Program-made: the position numbers and the translations under genes
The notes under the pieces: generated by a model
Database searches by the model: none
The model's input: the letters and a program-made list of their open reading frames with translations, nothing else
Told to the model about the DNA's origin: nothing
Shown here: piece after piece, positions 1,169-54,720 of the stretch
How the letters are laid out: each line of letters begins with the position of its first letter
How positions within the stretch are numbered: position 1 is the first letter of the stretch
NCBI GenBank assembly: GCA_028684065.1
Contig: JAQUGO010000002.1
Coordinates: 62,001-126,000, forward strand
Direction: 5' to 3'
DNA length: 64,000 nt
Source of the DNA: Sulfurospirillaceae bacterium
GTDB lineage: Bacteria; Campylobacterota; Campylobacteria; Campylobacterales; Sulfurospirillaceae

Positions 1169-3538
1169 TTAAAGTTCCACAACTCTCTCAAACATCTCTT
1201 TTATCTCCATTTCATGGCTTATCAAAAATATCTGTCTGTACTGTTCTTTTATGGTATGAAATGCTTCTAAGATTTCCATTCTTCGGTTTTCGTCTTGACT
1301 TCCAAAGACTTCGTCAAACGCTAAAAATCCCACGCTACTGGCACCGTTCAGTTCACTCAGTGTTTTAGAGATGGCGATACGAAGCACTAAGTTAGCAAGG
1401 TCTATCTCTCCGCCGCTGAAGCGTTCTATGGGGTAGCATTTGCCCTCGTCGTAGATGAAAAAGTCAAAGTCGTTGTTCACTTCGATGTATTGGTATTTGC
1501 CTTTGGTGATGGTGGCGTACATCTGCGAGGCGATTTGCGAGATGCGTGGGGCTATTTTTGAGTTGAGTTTGGTTTTAAACTCACTAAGGCTCAGTTTGAT
1601 TTTCTCATAGTCTTGCAAATCGTCTTTTTTACTCTGTACTTTTTTAAGTTGTATGTCGTTATTTTCCAGAGCGTTTTGCAAGGTTTTTATCTCGCCTTCA
1701 TTTTTGGCTATCTTTTCTTTTAGCTCTGAGATAACGCTGTATTGTTTCTCTTTTTGCTTTTGAAGTTCGTCGTATTCACTTTGTTTTGCGGTGTGTTTTG
1801 GCTCATCGTAGAGTGTTTTTTGCACTTCCAATTCTTTCTCTTTTGACTTTACATGTAAAGCTTCTGCACTTTTTACTGTAAGTGCCAAATCCTCTCTCAC
1901 GCCCTGCTCTCGTTTGAGTTCTGTTTCAAGACTTAGGACGGCTTCATACTTTGGTTTTAGCTCCAAAAAGCTTTTTTGTAGGCTTACATGTAAGGCTTCA
2001 TTGTAAGTGTGTTTTGAGAGAGTGTCAAGTTCTTCTTTGTTGCGTTTGCCTTGTTCACTGACTTTTATAAAATGCTCTTTGGCACTTGCCAAATCTTTTT
2101 GCTTACTTGCTATCAAACTAAGTGCCGTCTCGTTTACATGTAACGCTTTTTGCGTTTGCTCTTTTTGAAGTTCGAGCTCTCCTATCTGTTTATTTAGGAG
2201 TTCAAGTTTTTCTTTGGTTTTGTCTATCTTTTGAGTTTGCGTTTTTTGCACTATCTCGTTTAGTGAAGCGATGACATTGTCATACTCATCGAGCAATTGC
2301 CTTGTACATGTAGGGCAGTTTGATTCTCGACCTAGGCTTTGTATCTTGGCTATCTTTTGTTGTGTGTCTGAGACTACTCGTTGTTCGGCTGAGAGTTCAT
2401 TTTGAAGATTTTTTTGCTCTGTTTGCTTGCCCGAAAGTTCGGTTTTTAGCTTCGTTGACAAGGCTTCATTTTCTTTTTTTTGCCCTAAAAGTGTTTCATA
2501 CGGTTTGATTTGCTCTTCCAAAGTTGCGATGTCTGCTTTGGCTTTGGTGTACTGGGCTCGTAACTGGGTTTGCTCTTTTTCCAAACCCTCTTTTTTGATC
2601 TGTATATTTTTGAGAGTTTCTTGCTCTTTTAACTTTACATGTAAAGATTCGTACTCTTTTTTGACGGTGCTTAAACTTTTAAGTTCTTTGGCTTTTGTTT
2701 CTAAGGTTTTGAGCTCTGTGGTAAGTTTGGTTTGCGTGGCTATGTTTGCGTTGATGTCGTTTTTGATGAGAGAGAGTTCGCCCATCAGCTTTTGTTTTTG
2801 CTCTTTTGTTTTGACAAAGAGTTCTAATTCTTGCTTTACATGTAACTCTTGTTTTTTGGTGGTTTCTAGCTCTGTTGATTTAGTTTTGACTTCTTTTTCA
2901 AACGCTTGTTTTATGGCGGTAGTTTCTTTTATCAAAGCTGTTTTACTTTTTAGTTCTTCCTCGCCTAGAAGAAACTCTGCACTTGCTGCGATGTCGCGTT
3001 TGAGTTCTCTGCTTTTTTCGATGAGTTCATTTTCCACAAAGTCTATTCTTTCAAGCCCAAGAAGTTTGCGTATCATCTTTTTTCGATCTTCATTTTTAAG
3101 CGTGCTGAGGCTGGTAAGCTCTTTTTGAGAAGCGAAAAGTGTATGCAAAAACGCCTCTTTGCTCATCTTTGTGAGTTTCGTGATAGCCACGGTAACTTCT
3201 CTCGCTCCACTAGTGGTCAGCTCACCGTTTTTATACAGCTTGGCGTTCGCACTGAGGGCTTTTCCACGAAATTCACGCATAACTTTGTACGCCATACCTT
3301 CAAACTCAAAATCAAGCTCCACCAAAACAGCATCTTTATCACTCGCACTAGCATTTCGTATGACTTCTTTAAATTTTTTGTTTCTAAGTTCGCCATACAA
3401 GGCAAAAAGAATGGCTTCAAAAAGGGTCGATTTGCCACTGCCATTTTTACCGATGATGCCGATAAGTCCCTCACCAAACTCAATGTCAAAAGTGCTGTAG
3501 CGTTTGAAGTTTTCAAGGTGAAGTTTAGAGAGTATCAT
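1169..3538 (-). CDS. sbcC: SbcC/Rad50-like exonuclease ATPase subunit
   Basis: An SMC-type ATPase of 789 residues. The Walker A motif GKNGSGKST is at about residues 30-38. Long coiled coils flank a zinc hook CPTC near residues 409-412, in the middle of the protein. The C-terminal lobe has the ABC signature FSGGE and Walker B FLAFDEVFGSQD. With SbcD it forms the Mre11-Rad50-type nuclease that opens DNA hairpins and processes blocked ends. It is shorter than E. coli SbcC but in the range of compact bacterial Rad50 homologues. The start overlaps the sbcD end by 14 bases, showing translational coupling. Five exact TTACATGTAA palindromes lie in the coiled-coil coding part, each read as Leu-His-Val, so the repeats fall in the least conserved regions of the protein. 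Confidence 0.9.
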   Translation of the reverse strand: MILSKLHLENFKRYSTFDIEFGEGLIGIIGKNGSGKSTLFEAILFALYGELRNKKFKEVIRNASASDKDAVLVELDFEFEGMAYKVMREFRGKALSANAKLYKNGELTTSGAREVTVAITKLTKMSKEAFLHTLFASQKELTSLSTLKNEDRKKMIRKLLGLERIDFVENELIEKSRELKRDIAASAEFLLGEEELKSKTALIKETTAIKQAFEKEVKTKSTELETTKKQELHVKQELELFVKTKEQKQKLMGELSLIKNDINANIATQTKLTTELKTLETKAKELKSLSTVKKEYESLHVKLKEQETLKNIQIKKEGLEKEQTQLRAQYTKAKADIATLEEQIKPYETLLGQKKENEALSTKLKTELSGKQTEQKNLQNELSAEQRVVSDTQQKIAKIQSLGRESNCPTCTRQLLDEYDNVIASLNEIVQKTQTQKIDKTKEKLELLNKQIGELELQKEQTQKALHVNETALSLIASKQKDLASAKEHFIKVSEQGKRNKEELDTLSKHTYNEALHVSLQKSFLELKPKYEAVLSLETELKREQGVREDLALTVKSAEALHVKSKEKELEVQKTLYDEPKHTAKQSEYDELQKQKEKQYSVISELKEKIAKNEGEIKTLQNALENNDIQLKKVQSKKDDLQDYEKIKLSLSEFKTKLNSKIAPRISQIASQMYATITKGKYQYIEVNNDFDFFIYDEGKCYPIERFSGGEIDLANLVLRIAISKTLSELNGASSVGFLAFDEVFGSQDENRRMEILEAFHTIKEQYRQIFLISHEMEIKEMFERVVEL

Positions 3539-3923
3539 CGCTCACCTCTTCGTAGGCACTAAATAAGCCTTGGATTTTGCCTTTGAGCCTGTCAAACTCT
3601 TCGGGCTTACTCTCTTCTTTGATGTGTTCCAAAAAGTACGCTTCTAAAGAAAGTGCTTCGATGTCATTTAATGTGGCTTCTCCGCTGGTTTGTTTGAACT
3701 CTCTTTTGATGCTTACATGTAAGGCTTCACTAAAGAGATTTTTGATGTCACGGGTTTGGATGTCGATGGACTGCAACGGGGTGAGATGGGTCAGTTTGAC
3801 TTCGATGAGAGCGTCTTTTGTATCGTTTACATGTAAAGATGCGACAGCGTTTTCGTAGTCTTCACAATTGATTTCGTAGGTTTTAATCGGACGTATTTGT
3901 ATCTCGTGGTAGTTTACATGTAA
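1849..3923. repeat. Cluster of eight TTACATGTAA palindromes inside sbcCD
   Basis: Exact copies start at 1849, 1984, 2134, 2635, 2836, 3713, 3827 and 3914, so eight 10-mers fall in about 2.1 kb. A near-match, TGTACATGTAG, is at 2302. All exact copies here are in the reading frame that gives Leu-His-Val plus a polar residue. The flanks are often GC or AAGC, which extends the symmetry (for example GCTTACATGTAAGGC-like contexts). By composition the chance count for the whole 64-kb window is well below one. Confidence 0.9.
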
Positions 3924-5503: not shown

Positions 5504-5537
5504 ATTCTTGTTTTTCTTTACATGTAAGGATATAAAC

Positions 5538-23942: not shown

Positions 23943-24016
23943 TCACAAACCTTACATGTAATGATTTTTATTTATTATACTTTATATTTCTTTTGCATCA
24001 GCTTAGTCCCAAAATA

Positions 24017-28563: not shown

Positions 28564-29400
28564 ATGAATAGTTTAAGACGTTTCATATCCTTATGTATCA
28601 CATTATCTTTTTTAATCATGAGCTATACAGGTATTTTACTCTTTATATCACCAAAGGGACGTGTAGCAAATTGGACAAATTGGGAACTCTTCGGTTTGGA
28701 TAAAACACAATACACTAACTTACATGTTAGCTTTATGGTACTTTTTTTAATAGGGATGATGTTTCACCTTTATCTCAATTGGTCACCACTAATATGTTAC
28801 TTAAAAAACAAAGCACGCACGTTTAGCCTCTTGACCAAAGAATTTTTATTTGCTTTTGGTATTAATTTACTGTTTATTGTTGGAACGCTTTACTATTGGA
28901 CACCTTTTGATCAGTTTTTAGATTTTCAAGATGATGTCAAAGCCAGTTGGGAGCAAAAAGCTAATAAAGCACCTTATGGCCATGCAGAGCTTTCAAACAT
29001 CAAAGATTTTTCGGAAAAAACAGGTGCAAATACCGCTGATATTGTCGCACAATTGACTGCTAAAAAACTCAAAGGTGTGGATTTAGAAAAGAGCATCGCT
29101 CAAATTGCACGAGAAAATGGTCGTTCACCTGCACAACTCTTTGAAATGATTGATATAACCAAAAAAAATAATTCCAATGCAACCACAAGCACTACTATGG
29201 TACCGTTAAAAGAAGGTGGAGGCTATGGAAAATTGACCTTACAAACAGCATGTGAGCAATATGCACTAGAATTTAGCACCGTGCAAACTCAGCTAAAAGA
29301 AAAAGGCTTTGAAGCCAATCCAACAAATACATTACGCGAGATAGCTGATGCGTTACATGTAAGTCCGATTGAGCTTTTAGATATGCTTCGTAAACCATAG
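28564..29400 (+). CDS. DUF4405-family membrane protein with duplicated C-terminal helical repeat
   Basis: 278 residues. The N-terminal half has three membrane helices with candidate heme-ligand histidines in TNLHVSFM and FHLYLNW, the pattern of DUF4405/cytochrome-b561-like domains. The soluble C-terminal half looks like two copies of one helical unit: one ends IAQIARENGRSPAQLFEMI, the other IADALHVSPIELLDML. The second copy carries a TTACATGTAA palindrome (29353-29362). A role in membrane electron transfer is suggested by the family; the repeats may bind a partner. AGAAAGGA precedes the ATG. Confidence 0.7.
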   Translation: MNSLRRFISLCITLSFLIMSYTGILLFISPKGRVANWTNWELFGLDKTQYTNLHVSFMVLFLIGMMFHLYLNWSPLICYLKNKARTFSLLTKEFLFAFGINLLFIVGTLYYWTPFDQFLDFQDDVKASWEQKANKAPYGHAELSNIKDFSEKTGANTADIVAQLTAKKLKGVDLEKSIAQIARENGRSPAQLFEMIDITKKNNSNATTSTTMVPLKEGGGYGKLTLQTACEQYALEFSTVQTQLKEKGFEANPTNTLREIADALHVSPIELLDMLRKP

Positions 29401-42629: not shown

Positions 42630-43865
42630 ATGAAAGTGAAGATTTTAGAAGCAGATTTTGTGCTGACATGTAACGAAACGTTTGAGATAATTCAAAAAGG
42701 TGCAGTGGCCTTTGAAGAGACGATAATCGAAGTGGGAGAAAGTGAGCAACTCAAAGCTAAATACCCCAATGCAACGCATATTTTTACACCACCACATAGT
42801 GTCATTATGCCTGGTCTCATTAATGTGCACGTACACTTAGAATTTAGCGCCAATGCCACGATGCTACACTATGGTGATTTTATCCCATGGCTACAATCGG
42901 TCATTAAGCATCGTGAATCTCTAAGTCAAATGGCGACAACAGAGTTGATAGCCGAAAAATTACAAACAATGTTACGCTCAGGTACGACCTCTTTAGGGGC
43001 TATTAGCAGTTTTGGAGCTGACCTAGAAGCCTGCTCACAAGCACCACAGCGTGTTGTTTTTTTTAATGAAGTTTTAGGCTCAAATCCTGGCACAGTAGAT
43101 GCCATGTATGGGGATTTTTTAGGGCGCTATCACCAAAGTAAGGATGAAGCTTCCTCGATATTTTTCCCTGCTATTGCGATTCATTCGCCTTATTCAACAC
43201 ACCCTATTTTAGCAAAAAAGGCGATTGAATTGGCCTTTAGCGACCATGTCAATCTCTCAACCCATTTTATGGAGAGTCAGGCTGAGCGTGATTGGCTTGA
43301 TGAGGGAAAAGGTGATTTCACACAGTTTTTAACCGCTTTTAACCCTTACGCTAAACCGATGTGTTCAGCCGAGGAATTTCTCACGCTTTTTAATTCACTG
43401 CCTACACTTTTTACGCACAGTGTTCACGCTAGTGCGCAAGAATATGCAACGATAGCGGCACAGCATGGAACACTGACGCATTGCCCGATGTCCAACCGCC
43501 TTTTGGGTGTAGGTGCCCTTGATTTAGAAGCCGTCAGCAAACACGCTATTAACCTTACCGTAGGCACCGATGGCTTAAGTTCGAATATCTCTTTAAGCCT
43601 TTGGGACGAACTGCGTGCGGCTTTAATGATGCACACGAATAGTCCTCTTGAAGCCTTGTCAAAAACGCTTCTTAAAGCCGTTACATGTAACGCTTCAAAA
43701 GCTTTAAATCTGCCTGCTGGAAAACTTGAAAAAGGCTTATTGTCAGACATTATCGTTGCTACTTTACCACAAGAAGTCGATAGTATTGAACAACTCCCAG
43801 CTCAGCTTATTTTACATACCCATCAAACACACTTAACTTTTATAAACGGAGAACTTGTATGCTAA
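42630..43865 (+). CDS. Aminofutalosine deaminase-family amidohydrolase
   Basis: 411 residues of the COG0402 amidohydrolase superfamily. Metal ligands occur in NVHVHLEF, a central IHSPYSTHP, and GTDGLSSN. Related enzymes deaminate 6-aminofutalosine, S-adenosylhomocysteine or similar adenosine compounds; the precise substrate is not settled by sequence. ATG 42630 is very close to the AAGAAGG ribosome site, so GTG 42636 is an alternative start. A TACAAT box at 42606-42611 may be its -10. It lies divergent from aroQ and overlaps sppA by seven bases, as in C. jejuni. It holds a TTACATGTAA copy at 43681. Confidence 0.82.
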   Translation: MKVKILEADFVLTCNETFEIIQKGAVAFEETIIEVGESEQLKAKYPNATHIFTPPHSVIMPGLINVHVHLEFSANATMLHYGDFIPWLQSVIKHRESLSQMATTELIAEKLQTMLRSGTTSLGAISSFGADLEACSQAPQRVVFFNEVLGSNPGTVDAMYGDFLGRYHQSKDEASSIFFPAIAIHSPYSTHPILAKKAIELAFSDHVNLSTHFMESQAERDWLDEGKGDFTQFLTAFNPYAKPMCSAEEFLTLFNSLPTLFTHSVHASAQEYATIAAQHGTLTHCPMSNRLLGVGALDLEAVSKHAINLTVGTDGLSSNISLSLWDELRAALMMHTNSPLEALSKTLLKAVTCNASKALNLPAGKLEKGLLSDIIVATLPQEVDSIEQLPAQLILHTHQTHLTFINGELVC

Positions 43866-44765: not shown

Positions 44766-45623
44766 TTAAAAAACCTCGGCCATAGAACTGCGGTATGGAT
44801 GTTTTTCATAAATTCCTAAAATTTTTATCTCTTTAGCAAAATAGCGTAACTCTTCTAAAGCTAAGTGTAGAGCTTTTTCATCAGGATGACCATTGATGTC
44901 AAGATAAAAATGGCTTACATGTAAGGTTCCCATTTGATTATAGCTCTCCAGTTTTATCAGGTTTACTCCATTGGTAGCAAAGCCACCGAGCGCTTTATAA
45001 AGGGCGGCAGGAATGTCTCTAACTTGAAAAACCAAAGAGGTAATATAGTGTTTTCCAGCATCATAGGTCGGAATATGTTCATTCTTGGCCAACACAATAA
45101 AACGTGTGACATTGCCACGATAATCGCCAAAATCATCGTTTAAAATTTCTAAACCATAAAGCTCTGCAGCTATTTGTGAAGCAATGGCCGCGCGTGTAGG
45201 ATCATTTAATATTTTAAGCTCCTGAGCAGAACCTGCGGTATTAAACTTTGCTTCAGCCTTGAAACCTAATTTGGTGATATTCCTATGGCACTGGGCTAAG
45301 GCTTGAGGATGTGATGCAACCGATACAATACCCTCTATTGAGCTTCCTTTAATACCTAGCAAACAGTGACGTACAGGTTGAAAATGTTCTTCCACGATAT
45401 GAAGTTCCATGCGAGGAATCAGCCGATAAATCTCTTCCACGCGCCCTGCTGTTGAATTTTCAAACGGTATCATTGCCAATTGTGCTGTTCCAGATTCTAC
45501 CAGTTTCATGGCATTTTCAAACGTATCACAGGCAATGGTTATGGATTGTGGAAAGGCATTTTTACATGCAAGATAAGAATACGCACCTTCAACGCCTTGA
45601 TAAGCAATTACAACATCATTCAT
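44766..45623 (-). CDS. pheA: Prephenate dehydratase (no chorismate mutase domain)
   Basis: 285 residues: dehydratase domain with AYQGVEGAYSY, IPFENSTAGRV and the GDYRGNVTRFIVL catalytic segment, then a C-terminal ACT domain. There is no N-terminal chorismate mutase, unlike the bifunctional PheA usual in Campylobacter. The ACT motif reads LIKLESYNQMG rather than ESRP, as in alphaproteobacterial-type monofunctional enzymes, so regulation by Phe may differ. A TTACATGTAA copy lies at 44915. Confidence 0.9.
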   Translation of the reverse strand: MNDVVIAYQGVEGAYSYLACKNAFPQSITIACDTFENAMKLVESGTAQLAMIPFENSTAGRVEEIYRLIPRMELHIVEEHFQPVRHCLLGIKGSSIEGIVSVASHPQALAQCHRNITKLGFKAEAKFNTAGSAQELKILNDPTRAAIASQIAAELYGLEILNDDFGDYRGNVTRFIVLAKNEHIPTYDAGKHYITSLVFQVRDIPAALYKALGGFATNGVNLIKLESYNQMGTLHVSHFYLDINGHPDEKALHLALEELRYFAKEIKILGIYEKHPYRSSMAEVF

Positions 45624-46672: not shown

Positions 46673-47640
46673 ATGAAACAATACAAAAACTAGATGTTTT
46701 ACATTCGCTCAAACGTTATGAAGCGTGCTTACATGTAAGTATCCCCTTGTGTTCAAGCATAAGCGATAATCAAGAGGAAGCGTATCGTTATACGATTTTG
46801 GCAATGATTGGATTAGAGCGCTTTGATGAAGCGTTACACTGGGTACAGCAAGCTTTAGGAGATTTTCCGAATGAGCCTTATTTCTTCTATCTTAAAGCCT
46901 TTACACTCTTTAGTGCTAATCGCTATAAAGAAGCACTTTTTGAGATAACGACATTACTGGGCATTGAACCCAATAATGCCTCCTATCATCATCTTCATGC
47001 GCAAATTTTGACATCTCTTTCATTGTATGTAAAAGCAAAACGCGCCATTGATAAAGCACTTTTGATAGACAGCCATCACGTAGATTATTTGTGTACCTTG
47101 GCGTTAATTACCTATCATTTAGGCAATACACCTATTGCTTGTGAGATTATCGATTCTGCTCTTATGCAAGAGCCGAATCACTCTTTTGCACTCTATTTGA
47201 AATCTGCCATCGGCACATCTTCTTTAGACACACAAGGAAGGATTTTAAAAAATTTACTGTTTCAAAATCCTTTTGATAAAAGTACGCAAGAAGGCTACGA
47301 ACGTATCCGTCGCTACTATACTCTTGTGCCTGTCATAATGCTTGCTTTTATTTTATATGCTCTAGGTGCAAGCTTAGAGATGTGGGAAAAGGGCGAAGAA
47401 ATAGGTATGGCTTTACTAATTTTTTCAACCTATGCATGGCGTGATTGGCGATTGAGTCTTCCTTTTTTTGCTTTAATATTTACCCTTTTAAGTGAAACTT
47501 CTCTTGCTCAATGGTATATTATTCCCATTGCTGCGCTGCTTTATTATTTTATAGGGCGCGTTACAGGACAAATTGGGATGATGCTTTTAGCTACACTACA
47601 AAAAATGATACACAAAGGTCAAAAATGGCTGAACCCTTAA
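46669..47640 (+). CDS. TPR protein with C-terminal membrane helices
   Basis: 323 residues. Residues 10-200 consist of tetratricopeptide-type helical pairs (for example ALHWVQQALGDFPNEPYFFY, and AKRAIDKALLIDSHHVDYL). Four to five membrane helices follow from about residue 222. This places a TPR platform at the membrane, probably facing the cytoplasm. It overlaps the AAA gene by 16 bases. A TTACATGTAA copy at 46729 encodes Leu-His-Val-Ser. Confidence 0.75.
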   Translation: MNETIQKLDVLHSLKRYEACLHVSIPLCSSISDNQEEAYRYTILAMIGLERFDEALHWVQQALGDFPNEPYFFYLKAFTLFSANRYKEALFEITTLLGIEPNNASYHHLHAQILTSLSLYVKAKRAIDKALLIDSHHVDYLCTLALITYHLGNTPIACEIIDSALMQEPNHSFALYLKSAIGTSSLDTQGRILKNLLFQNPFDKSTQEGYERIRRYYTLVPVIMLAFILYALGASLEMWEKGEEIGMALLIFSTYAWRDWRLSLPFFALIFTLLSETSLAQWYIIPIAALLYYFIGRVTGQIGMMLLATLQKMIHKGQKWLNP

Positions 47641-48881: not shown

Positions 48882-49517
48882 TTAAAGCGCGTGCTCTTTG
48901 CGATACGCAATAATTTCATCAATACTGACGATAGGAAAGTTGTGCTTTTGTGCAAAGCTTACAATCTGCTCGCCCACACTCATTGTTCCATCAGGATTGG
49001 TGAGTTCACACAAAACGCCATACGGTGGAAGCCCAGAAAGGCGCATCAAATCTACCGTTGCCTCTGTATGTCCTTCACGTTCTAACACACCATTGGCTCG
49101 TGCTCGAAGTGGAAAAACATGCCCAGGAGAGACGATTTTCATTTTGCCCTCAGGATGAATAGCCGCGTGAATGGTAGTGCATCTATCTTTAGCACTTACA
49201 CCCGTAGTAACGCCCTCTTTAGCTTCTATGGAAACCGTAAATGCTGTTTGGAATTTAGACTCATTGTGCGTAACCATCATAGGAAGGGCTAGTTCATCAA
49301 GCTTTTCAGAGGGTAAACACAAACAGACAATACCACTGCATTCACGTATCAGTAACGCCATTTGCGCAGGAGTAAGAGAGTGGGCAGAGAAGATAATATC
49401 GGCTTCATTTTCGCGATTGAGACTATCCATCACGATAACACCGTTTTGATTTTGTAACGCACTTATGGCTTGCACTACAGAGTTGGTAAGCGAAAAATTC
49501 GCACACATTTGATTCAT
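48882..49517 (-). CDS. ribB: 3,4-dihydroxy-2-butanone 4-phosphate synthase
   Basis: 211 residues, the single-domain RibB. Catalytic segments [15 protein letters not shown], the [10 protein letters not shown]-type loop and [18 protein letters not shown] are present. It makes the four-carbon precursor of riboflavin from ribulose 5-phosphate. The FMN riboswitch lies about 95 bases upstream in the leader, so expression should fall when FMN is plentiful. Confidence 0.95.
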
Positions 49518-49613
49518 GGGTTACTCCTAAAAGGTGAGTAAACTTACCAGAATCAGGGCATCTTTAAATATAGACACACGATTTTGTCATCAACAATGGC
49601 AACAATGCACTAC

Positions 49614-49772
49614 ATTCTCTCTCATCCGGACTTTAACCGTTGGTTTTGGAGTTACACCAAATCTGCTTGACCTTTTACATGTAATAGACTTCTTACATGT
49701 AAAAGCGCTCGCGGACTCTCTTTGTTACAAGATTACCGCCAGTAGGGAATCACACCCTGCCCTGAGAAATAA
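49614..49772 (-). promoter_or_regulatory. FMN riboswitch (RFN element) upstream of ribB
   Basis: Read leftwards, the conserved blocks occur in order: TCTCAGGGCAGGGTGTGATT, CCTACTGGCGGTAAT, AGTCCGCGAGCGC, then GCAGATTTGGTGTAACTCCA, AACCAACGGTTAAAGTCC and GGATGAGAGAGAAT. This is the complete FMN aptamer. The variable stem after GCGAGCGC is formed by two TTACATGTAA palindromes (49675-49684 and 49693-49702), which pair as longer arms CTTTTACATGTAA and TTACATGTAAAAGG. The leader between aptamer and ribB could form the switching hairpin; I did not resolve it. Confidence 0.92.
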
Positions 49773-49820
49773 GTTTCGGTGAAAGTATACCCCTTTGTTC
49801 TTAAAAAAAATAAATCGGTG

Positions 49821-52550: not shown

Positions 52551-54720
<2,170 letters not shown>

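Follow-up and report, generated by a model that had tools for sequence, protein, structure and literature searches.

Two copies of the palindrome TTACATGTAA stand 8 bases apart in the leader of ribB in a Sulfurospirillaceae genome, within an FMN riboswitch. The locus raises the question of whether the palindrome is there for the riboswitch or whether the riboswitch is one of many positions at which the palindrome is kept. We addressed it in the window (the whole 64,000-nucleotide stretch of DNA that was analysed), in the genome from which it comes and in related genomes, which are designated by handles (G019 and the like) only where they need to be told apart.

The FMN riboswitch and its stem P4

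The covariance model RF00050 matched window positions 49773-49610 on the reverse strand with a score of 109.5 bits (E = 1.4e-24), above the curated cut-off of 66.2 bits. Model positions 1-138 were matched and the aptamer is complete. It is followed 93 nt downstream by ribB, which encodes DHBP synthase (PF00926). The features of the locus are listed below.

49610-49773, reverse strand: FMN riboswitch aptamer, complete (RF00050)
48882-49517, reverse strand: ribB, 3,4-dihydroxy-2-butanone 4-phosphate synthase, 211 aa, the controlled gene (PF00926)
49553-49559, reverse strand: leader GCCCUGA, candidate expression-platform pairing with the P1 5' strand UCAGGGC (49765-49759), read from the sequence
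49672-49705, reverse strand: variable stem P4, 13 bp, with 5' arm 49693-49705, 3' arm 49672-49684 and loop 49685-49692 (comparison and predicted fold)
49693-49702, unstranded: TTACATGTAA in the 5' arm of P4, exact match, the copy common to most congeners
49675-49684, unstranded: TTACATGTAA in the 3' arm of P4, exact match, the second copy, found in this genome only
49685-49698, unstranded: TAGACTTCTTACAT, complement of ATGTAAGAAGTCTA (the MITE end in P4 of G004), probable excision scar by sequence identity

Both copies are located between P3 and P5, that is, in the free-length stem P4. The original prediction had placed them in the variable stem of the ribB RFN element, and the full match to RF00050 with the copies inside the aptamer bears this out. 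In the predicted fold of the aptamer alone, the two copies are the arms of a 13-bp P4 with the 8-nt loop GAAGUCUA, and this is the strongest helix of that fold. The pairing of the copies with each other as longer arms thus agrees with what had been proposed; folding of each copy on itself is possible in principle, but the predicted fold has the inter-copy pairing instead. The riboswitch itself is ordinary. It resembles the RF00050 family in its full-length match, its conserved core and its position upstream of ribB, and only P4, as a 13-bp stem of two iterated palindromes, is unusual. The leader GCCCUGA and the 5' strand of P1 likely constitute the expression platform, although this reading of the sequence is suggestive only.

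A copy of the palindrome is present in P4 of 16 of the 18 intact aptamers of congeners and in the interrupted aptamer of G004 (17 of 19 congeners). Its usual position is directly after GCG in the 5' arm, at the same offset, while in the group of G013, G003, G015 and G005 it occupies the P4 apex. In G021, the P3 hairpin of the FMN riboswitch contains an additional TTACATGTAA. The two remaining congeners keep the pairing of P4 without the palindrome (CTTTTAATG/CATTAAAAG in G009 and CTTTTAGTG/CATTAAAAG in G020), with a similar length and with bases that differ by compensatory changes. Pair 7 of P4 varies by species (C-G, A-U, G-U, or U-A) and pair 2 is U-A or C-G. Since G009 and G020 retain the stem, the DNA motif and the RNA stem are separable, and the riboswitch does not need the palindrome. 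Elsewhere in the class, P4 of the FMN riboswitch is a different stem, in some cases one near the palindrome, as in three genomes of another family with CTTTACATTTGTAAAG, which is two bases off. In G043 (567 genomic sites) it is CTTCATAGTATGAAG.

These comparisons bear on the possibility that a palindromic P4 is specific to the riboswitch, with selection acting on the copies for a stable RNA stem or for a binding site involved in ribB regulation. The strength of the 13-bp helix in the predicted fold and the presence of a copy in P4 of most congeners would fit such a role. However, hundreds of palindromes lie elsewhere in the genome, mostly in coding sequence, and the arrangement of two copies 8 nt apart is unique to this genome: a search of 296 loci gave two matches, both of which are the present ribB locus. 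P4 lacks the palindrome in G009, G020 and other Campylobacterota. Close relatives with unrelated stems of equal length had been named in advance as the refuting observation, and for any riboswitch-specific role this is what was observed. We consider this explanation largely refuted and highly improbable.

Origin of the second copy

In G004 (strain SCADC), P4 contains a 165-bp MITE with the inverted ends TAGACTTC...GAAGTCTA. The MITE family is dispersed through the genus in many copies with TA flanks and inverted ends. In strain SCADC one copy interrupts the FMN aptamer, and riboswitch function there may or may not persist. P4 of the present genome contains ATGTAAGAAGTCTA, which matches the MITE end of G004 at each of 14 nt and lies directly in the palindrome context; the loop GAAGUCUA equals the 8-nt MITE end. 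No MITE copies were found in this genome, only the end sequence in P4.

From this identity over 8-14 nt, the P4 loop is probably the excision scar of a MITE. The element would have inserted into P4 and later disappeared except for its 8-nt end, now the loop. ATGTAA occurs both in the palindrome and in the MITE end, and a deletion between these two copies would give the present sequence; the 3' arm would later have been corrected into a further palindrome, perfectly complementary to the one in the 5' arm. Alternatively, the second copy and the loop may have arisen by simple duplication or template switching within P4, with no MITE involved. Such a route is favoured by the lack of the MITE in this genome and by the known correction of inverted repeats to perfect ones. 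It is, however, rather unlikely in view of the loop and adjoining palindrome end, which match the MITE end over 14 nt in the same stem where G004 carries the element, and MITE excision is the origin that we prefer.

The palindrome in the genome and its possible maintenance

The window contains 18 exact and 13 one-mismatch sites, and the total of 31 compares with an expectation of 4.75 and a maximum of 11 in shuffled sequences. The exact sites outside the riboswitch are as follows.

1849-3923, unstranded: eight exact palindromes in sbcC/sbcD-like genes (starting at 1849, 1984, 2134, 2635, 2836, 3713, 3827 and 3914; genes named by eye)
5518-5527, unstranded: exact palindrome
23952-23961, unstranded: exact palindrome
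29353-29362, unstranded: exact palindrome
43681-43690, unstranded: exact palindrome
44915-44924, unstranded: exact palindrome
46729-46738, unstranded: exact palindrome
52801-52810, unstranded: exact palindrome
54429-54438, unstranded: exact palindrome

The density in the sbcC/sbcD-like recombination genes is far above the genome mean of ~1 per 6.5 kb. The whole genome has 412 copies of TTACATGTAA versus 2 of the reversed control, and 400 kb of it, with both strands counted, has 126 versus 1.2 expected. The other 23 Sulfurospirillum genomes have 49-1,496 copies each, other genera of the family a variable 7-733 and other families of the order 0-6, with the reversed control at 0-10 across genomes. 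It ranks first in enrichment among the 10-mers of G019 and G000; in a 200-kb sample of G009 it is absent, and no replacement palindrome was found there either. TTACATGTAA therefore qualifies as a highly iterated palindrome in Sulfurospirillum and in some of its sister genera. The open-access literature searched contained no report of it as a bacterial repeat, nor of any iterated palindrome in Sulfurospirillum, and the wider repeat appears to be undescribed in those papers.

The strict core of the motif is TACATGTA, and the outer base is mostly T, followed by C. In G019, 24 of the 26 one-mismatch sites differ at position 1, and G000 is looser. The flanking bases show a preference, and the symmetry of the palindrome is of the dimer type. 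Two S. diekertiae plasmids have 4 exact sites each, versus ~17-18 at the chromosomal density. The core TACATGTA occurs 13-14 times on the same plasmids, as if they were partly adapted to the host pattern. In the G000 and G021 samples, TGACATGTAA outnumbers the transition product TCACATGTAA (14 versus 6 and 5 versus 0, respectively). Simple decay does not predict this excess, and these lineages may have changed their preferred motif.

The sites keep their positions. Across corresponding 200-kb stretches with an overall identity of 81.7%, 46 of 50 aligned G016 sites were exact in G019 and 46 of 65 in the reverse direction, while none of 66 aligned G019 sites was exact in G009, which is about equally related (80.5%). 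Between G019 and G016, the identity is 92.5% at the sites and 77.5% in the adjacent 10 bp; between G019 and G009, the values are 70% and 73%, respectively. BLAST favours conserved stretches and these percentages lean toward conserved DNA. Together, the two comparisons indicate that the positions are weakly constrained apart from the motif. Approximately three quarters of the sites are in genes, where they are read mostly as LHV(K/N) or (F/L)TCK, and non-coding DNA holds about three times its share.

Very probably, then, the riboswitch P4 is one of many fixed and otherwise weakly constrained positions that carry an iterated palindrome. The palindrome would be held at such positions throughout the genome, P4 among them, and the P4 stems of some repeat-free Campylobacterota are already near it (CTTTACATTTGTAAAG). 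Because inverted-repeat symmetry is common to RNA hairpins and DNA palindromes, half of the palindrome can serve as a P4 arm with the aptamer unharmed. Of the two explanations offered originally, insertion into neutral sites gains support as regards neutrality, but P4 is an old, mostly inherited site, shared by most congeners, and not a fresh insertion. The shared use in DNA and RNA stands in the passive sense that half of the palindrome is the 5' arm of P4; a need of the riboswitch for the palindrome is contradicted by G009 and G020.

The methyltransferase comparison covered the D12 and PF01555 families. The N6/N4 methyltransferases of PF01555 showed no correlation with the sites. A single locus carries a gene for a D12 adenine methyltransferase (PF02086) of ~325 aa; a transglutaminase-like gene lies downstream of it, a cheY-like gene is usually its neighbour, and no restriction enzyme is encoded next to it (orphan). 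Fifteen congeners with tight sites have this gene, one of which, a draft with 78% completeness, has it in fragments. The same junction is without the gene in G000, G002, G009, G010, G020 and G021, six genomes with few or frayed sites that include the present one. The D12 clade has a support of 100/100, and its members are all from genomes with at least 869 sites. In G004, the gene adjoins cas1- and cas9-like reading frames.

Per exact site, one-mismatch sites exceed the reversed control by 0.11-0.42 in genomes with the D12 gene and by 0.70-3.2 in those without it. One-mismatch sites of the core are in excess in G000 (198 versus 143, P = 8e-6) and at background in site-rich genomes (45 versus 48.6 in G019 and 43 versus 58.7 in G016). 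A depletion of one-mismatch sites in site-rich genomes, an impression given by the 10-mer, was discarded: the 8-mer core is near the background and not clearly below it. On a tree built from the flanking genes and ribB, site state and D12 gene undergo four changes each, and the two traits agree in every supported independent pair; these are 3-4 independent contrasts, too few for significance, for a gene chosen after the site counts had been seen. G017 (934 sites) and G043 are exceptions, with a tight core and no D12 match, and some genomes with 7-29 sites encode D12 relatives (51-56% identity). The recognition site cannot be inferred by homology, because the distant relatives have other specificities, pairing with FokI- or AlwI-type endonucleases, and no relative is solved.

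From these sequence comparisons, the orphan D12 N6-adenine methyltransferase, acting on the palindrome, is the most likely maintainer, a supported hypothesis that we hold tentatively. The enzyme would methylate the palindrome, and without it the sites would be free to decay, as in this genome. Possible routes of preservation are methyl-directed repair, methyl-dependent DNA uptake and a methyl-sensitive binding protein. More tentatively still, approximately a thousand fixed TTACATGTAA sites may be maintained by D12 methylation together with methyl-directed repair or methyl-dependent uptake, as a HIP-type system outside the cyanobacteria in which the loss of one gene erodes the palindrome.

Two other maintainers were weighed. 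TTACATGTAA could be a DNA uptake sequence enriched by uptake and recombination, and a methyl-dependent version of this would also use the methyltransferase. Copy numbers of up to 1,496 are comparable to those of known uptake sequences, plasmids have a lower density of the motif than the chromosome, and in C. jejuni, another member of the phylum, uptake is restricted to CtsM-methylated DNA. To our knowledge, however, known uptake sequences are not perfect palindromes. The competence channel ComEC was found in 57 of 60 genomes; its near universality leaves room for uptake but is not discriminating, as ComEC is also present where the sites are lost. In addition, core one-mismatch sites are at background in the site-rich genomes, whereas the uptake sequences of H. 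influenzae and N. gonorrhoeae have their one-mismatch variants in excess (PMC1939737). Overall, uptake seems an unlikely though not negligible maintainer. The palindrome could also be bound by an abundant nucleoid protein or chromosome organiser, with approximately a thousand sites under selection and loss of the protein accounting for the poor genomes. Position-specific conservation, the dimer-type symmetry and the flanking-base preference are what such a site might display, but no candidate protein was found and only the methyltransferase was found to vary with the sites. We regard this as improbable, and the D12 methyltransferase is retained as the preferred candidate.

Relation to known systems

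The actual discovery is a repeat that runs through the whole genome and that fades in the absence of one DNA-methylating enzyme. The riboswitch is a case in which a motif kept at the DNA level uses an RNA stem as a permissive site, with pairing and motif separable across species.

The uptake sequences of Neisseriaceae and Pasteurellaceae are not known to be palindromic. They resemble the present repeat as one short word in hundreds to thousands of copies, and differ in that their one-mismatch variants are over-represented, as in H. influenzae and N. gonorrhoeae (PMC1939737), with no such excess in the site-rich genomes here. In C. jejuni, DNA uptake is directed by CtsM-dependent methylation of RAATTY (PMC8468864, PMC10046745). 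The phylum is the same, and an orphan adenine methyltransferase marks the cell's own DNA there, as the candidate identified from sequence may do here, although RAATTY is not reported in those papers as a highly iterated 10-bp palindrome. By analogy, such uptake could be another route by which an orphan methyltransferase favours a motif.

The closest known kind is HIP1 (GCGATCGC) of cyanobacteria, which together with alternate HIPs has been linked to solitary DNA methyltransferases (Elhai 2015, PMC4390886). Both are short perfect palindromes with a density of ~1 per 2 kb in the genomes rich in them, located mainly in genes and sporadically lost; in both, variants concentrate at the outer positions. 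The link of HIPs to solitary methyltransferases may have its counterpart in the candidate enzyme here. Unlike the GC-rich HIP1, the present repeat is an A+T-rich 10-mer with an 8-bp strict core in Campylobacterota, and the associated enzyme is a different D12 methyltransferase, as a candidate link. The function of HIPs has been open since HIP1 was described. Here, a palindrome of this kind in another phylum has undergone repeated parallel decay and a candidate gene occupies a fixed locus, so that cultured species such as S. diekertiae allow the methyltransferase hypothesis to be tested.
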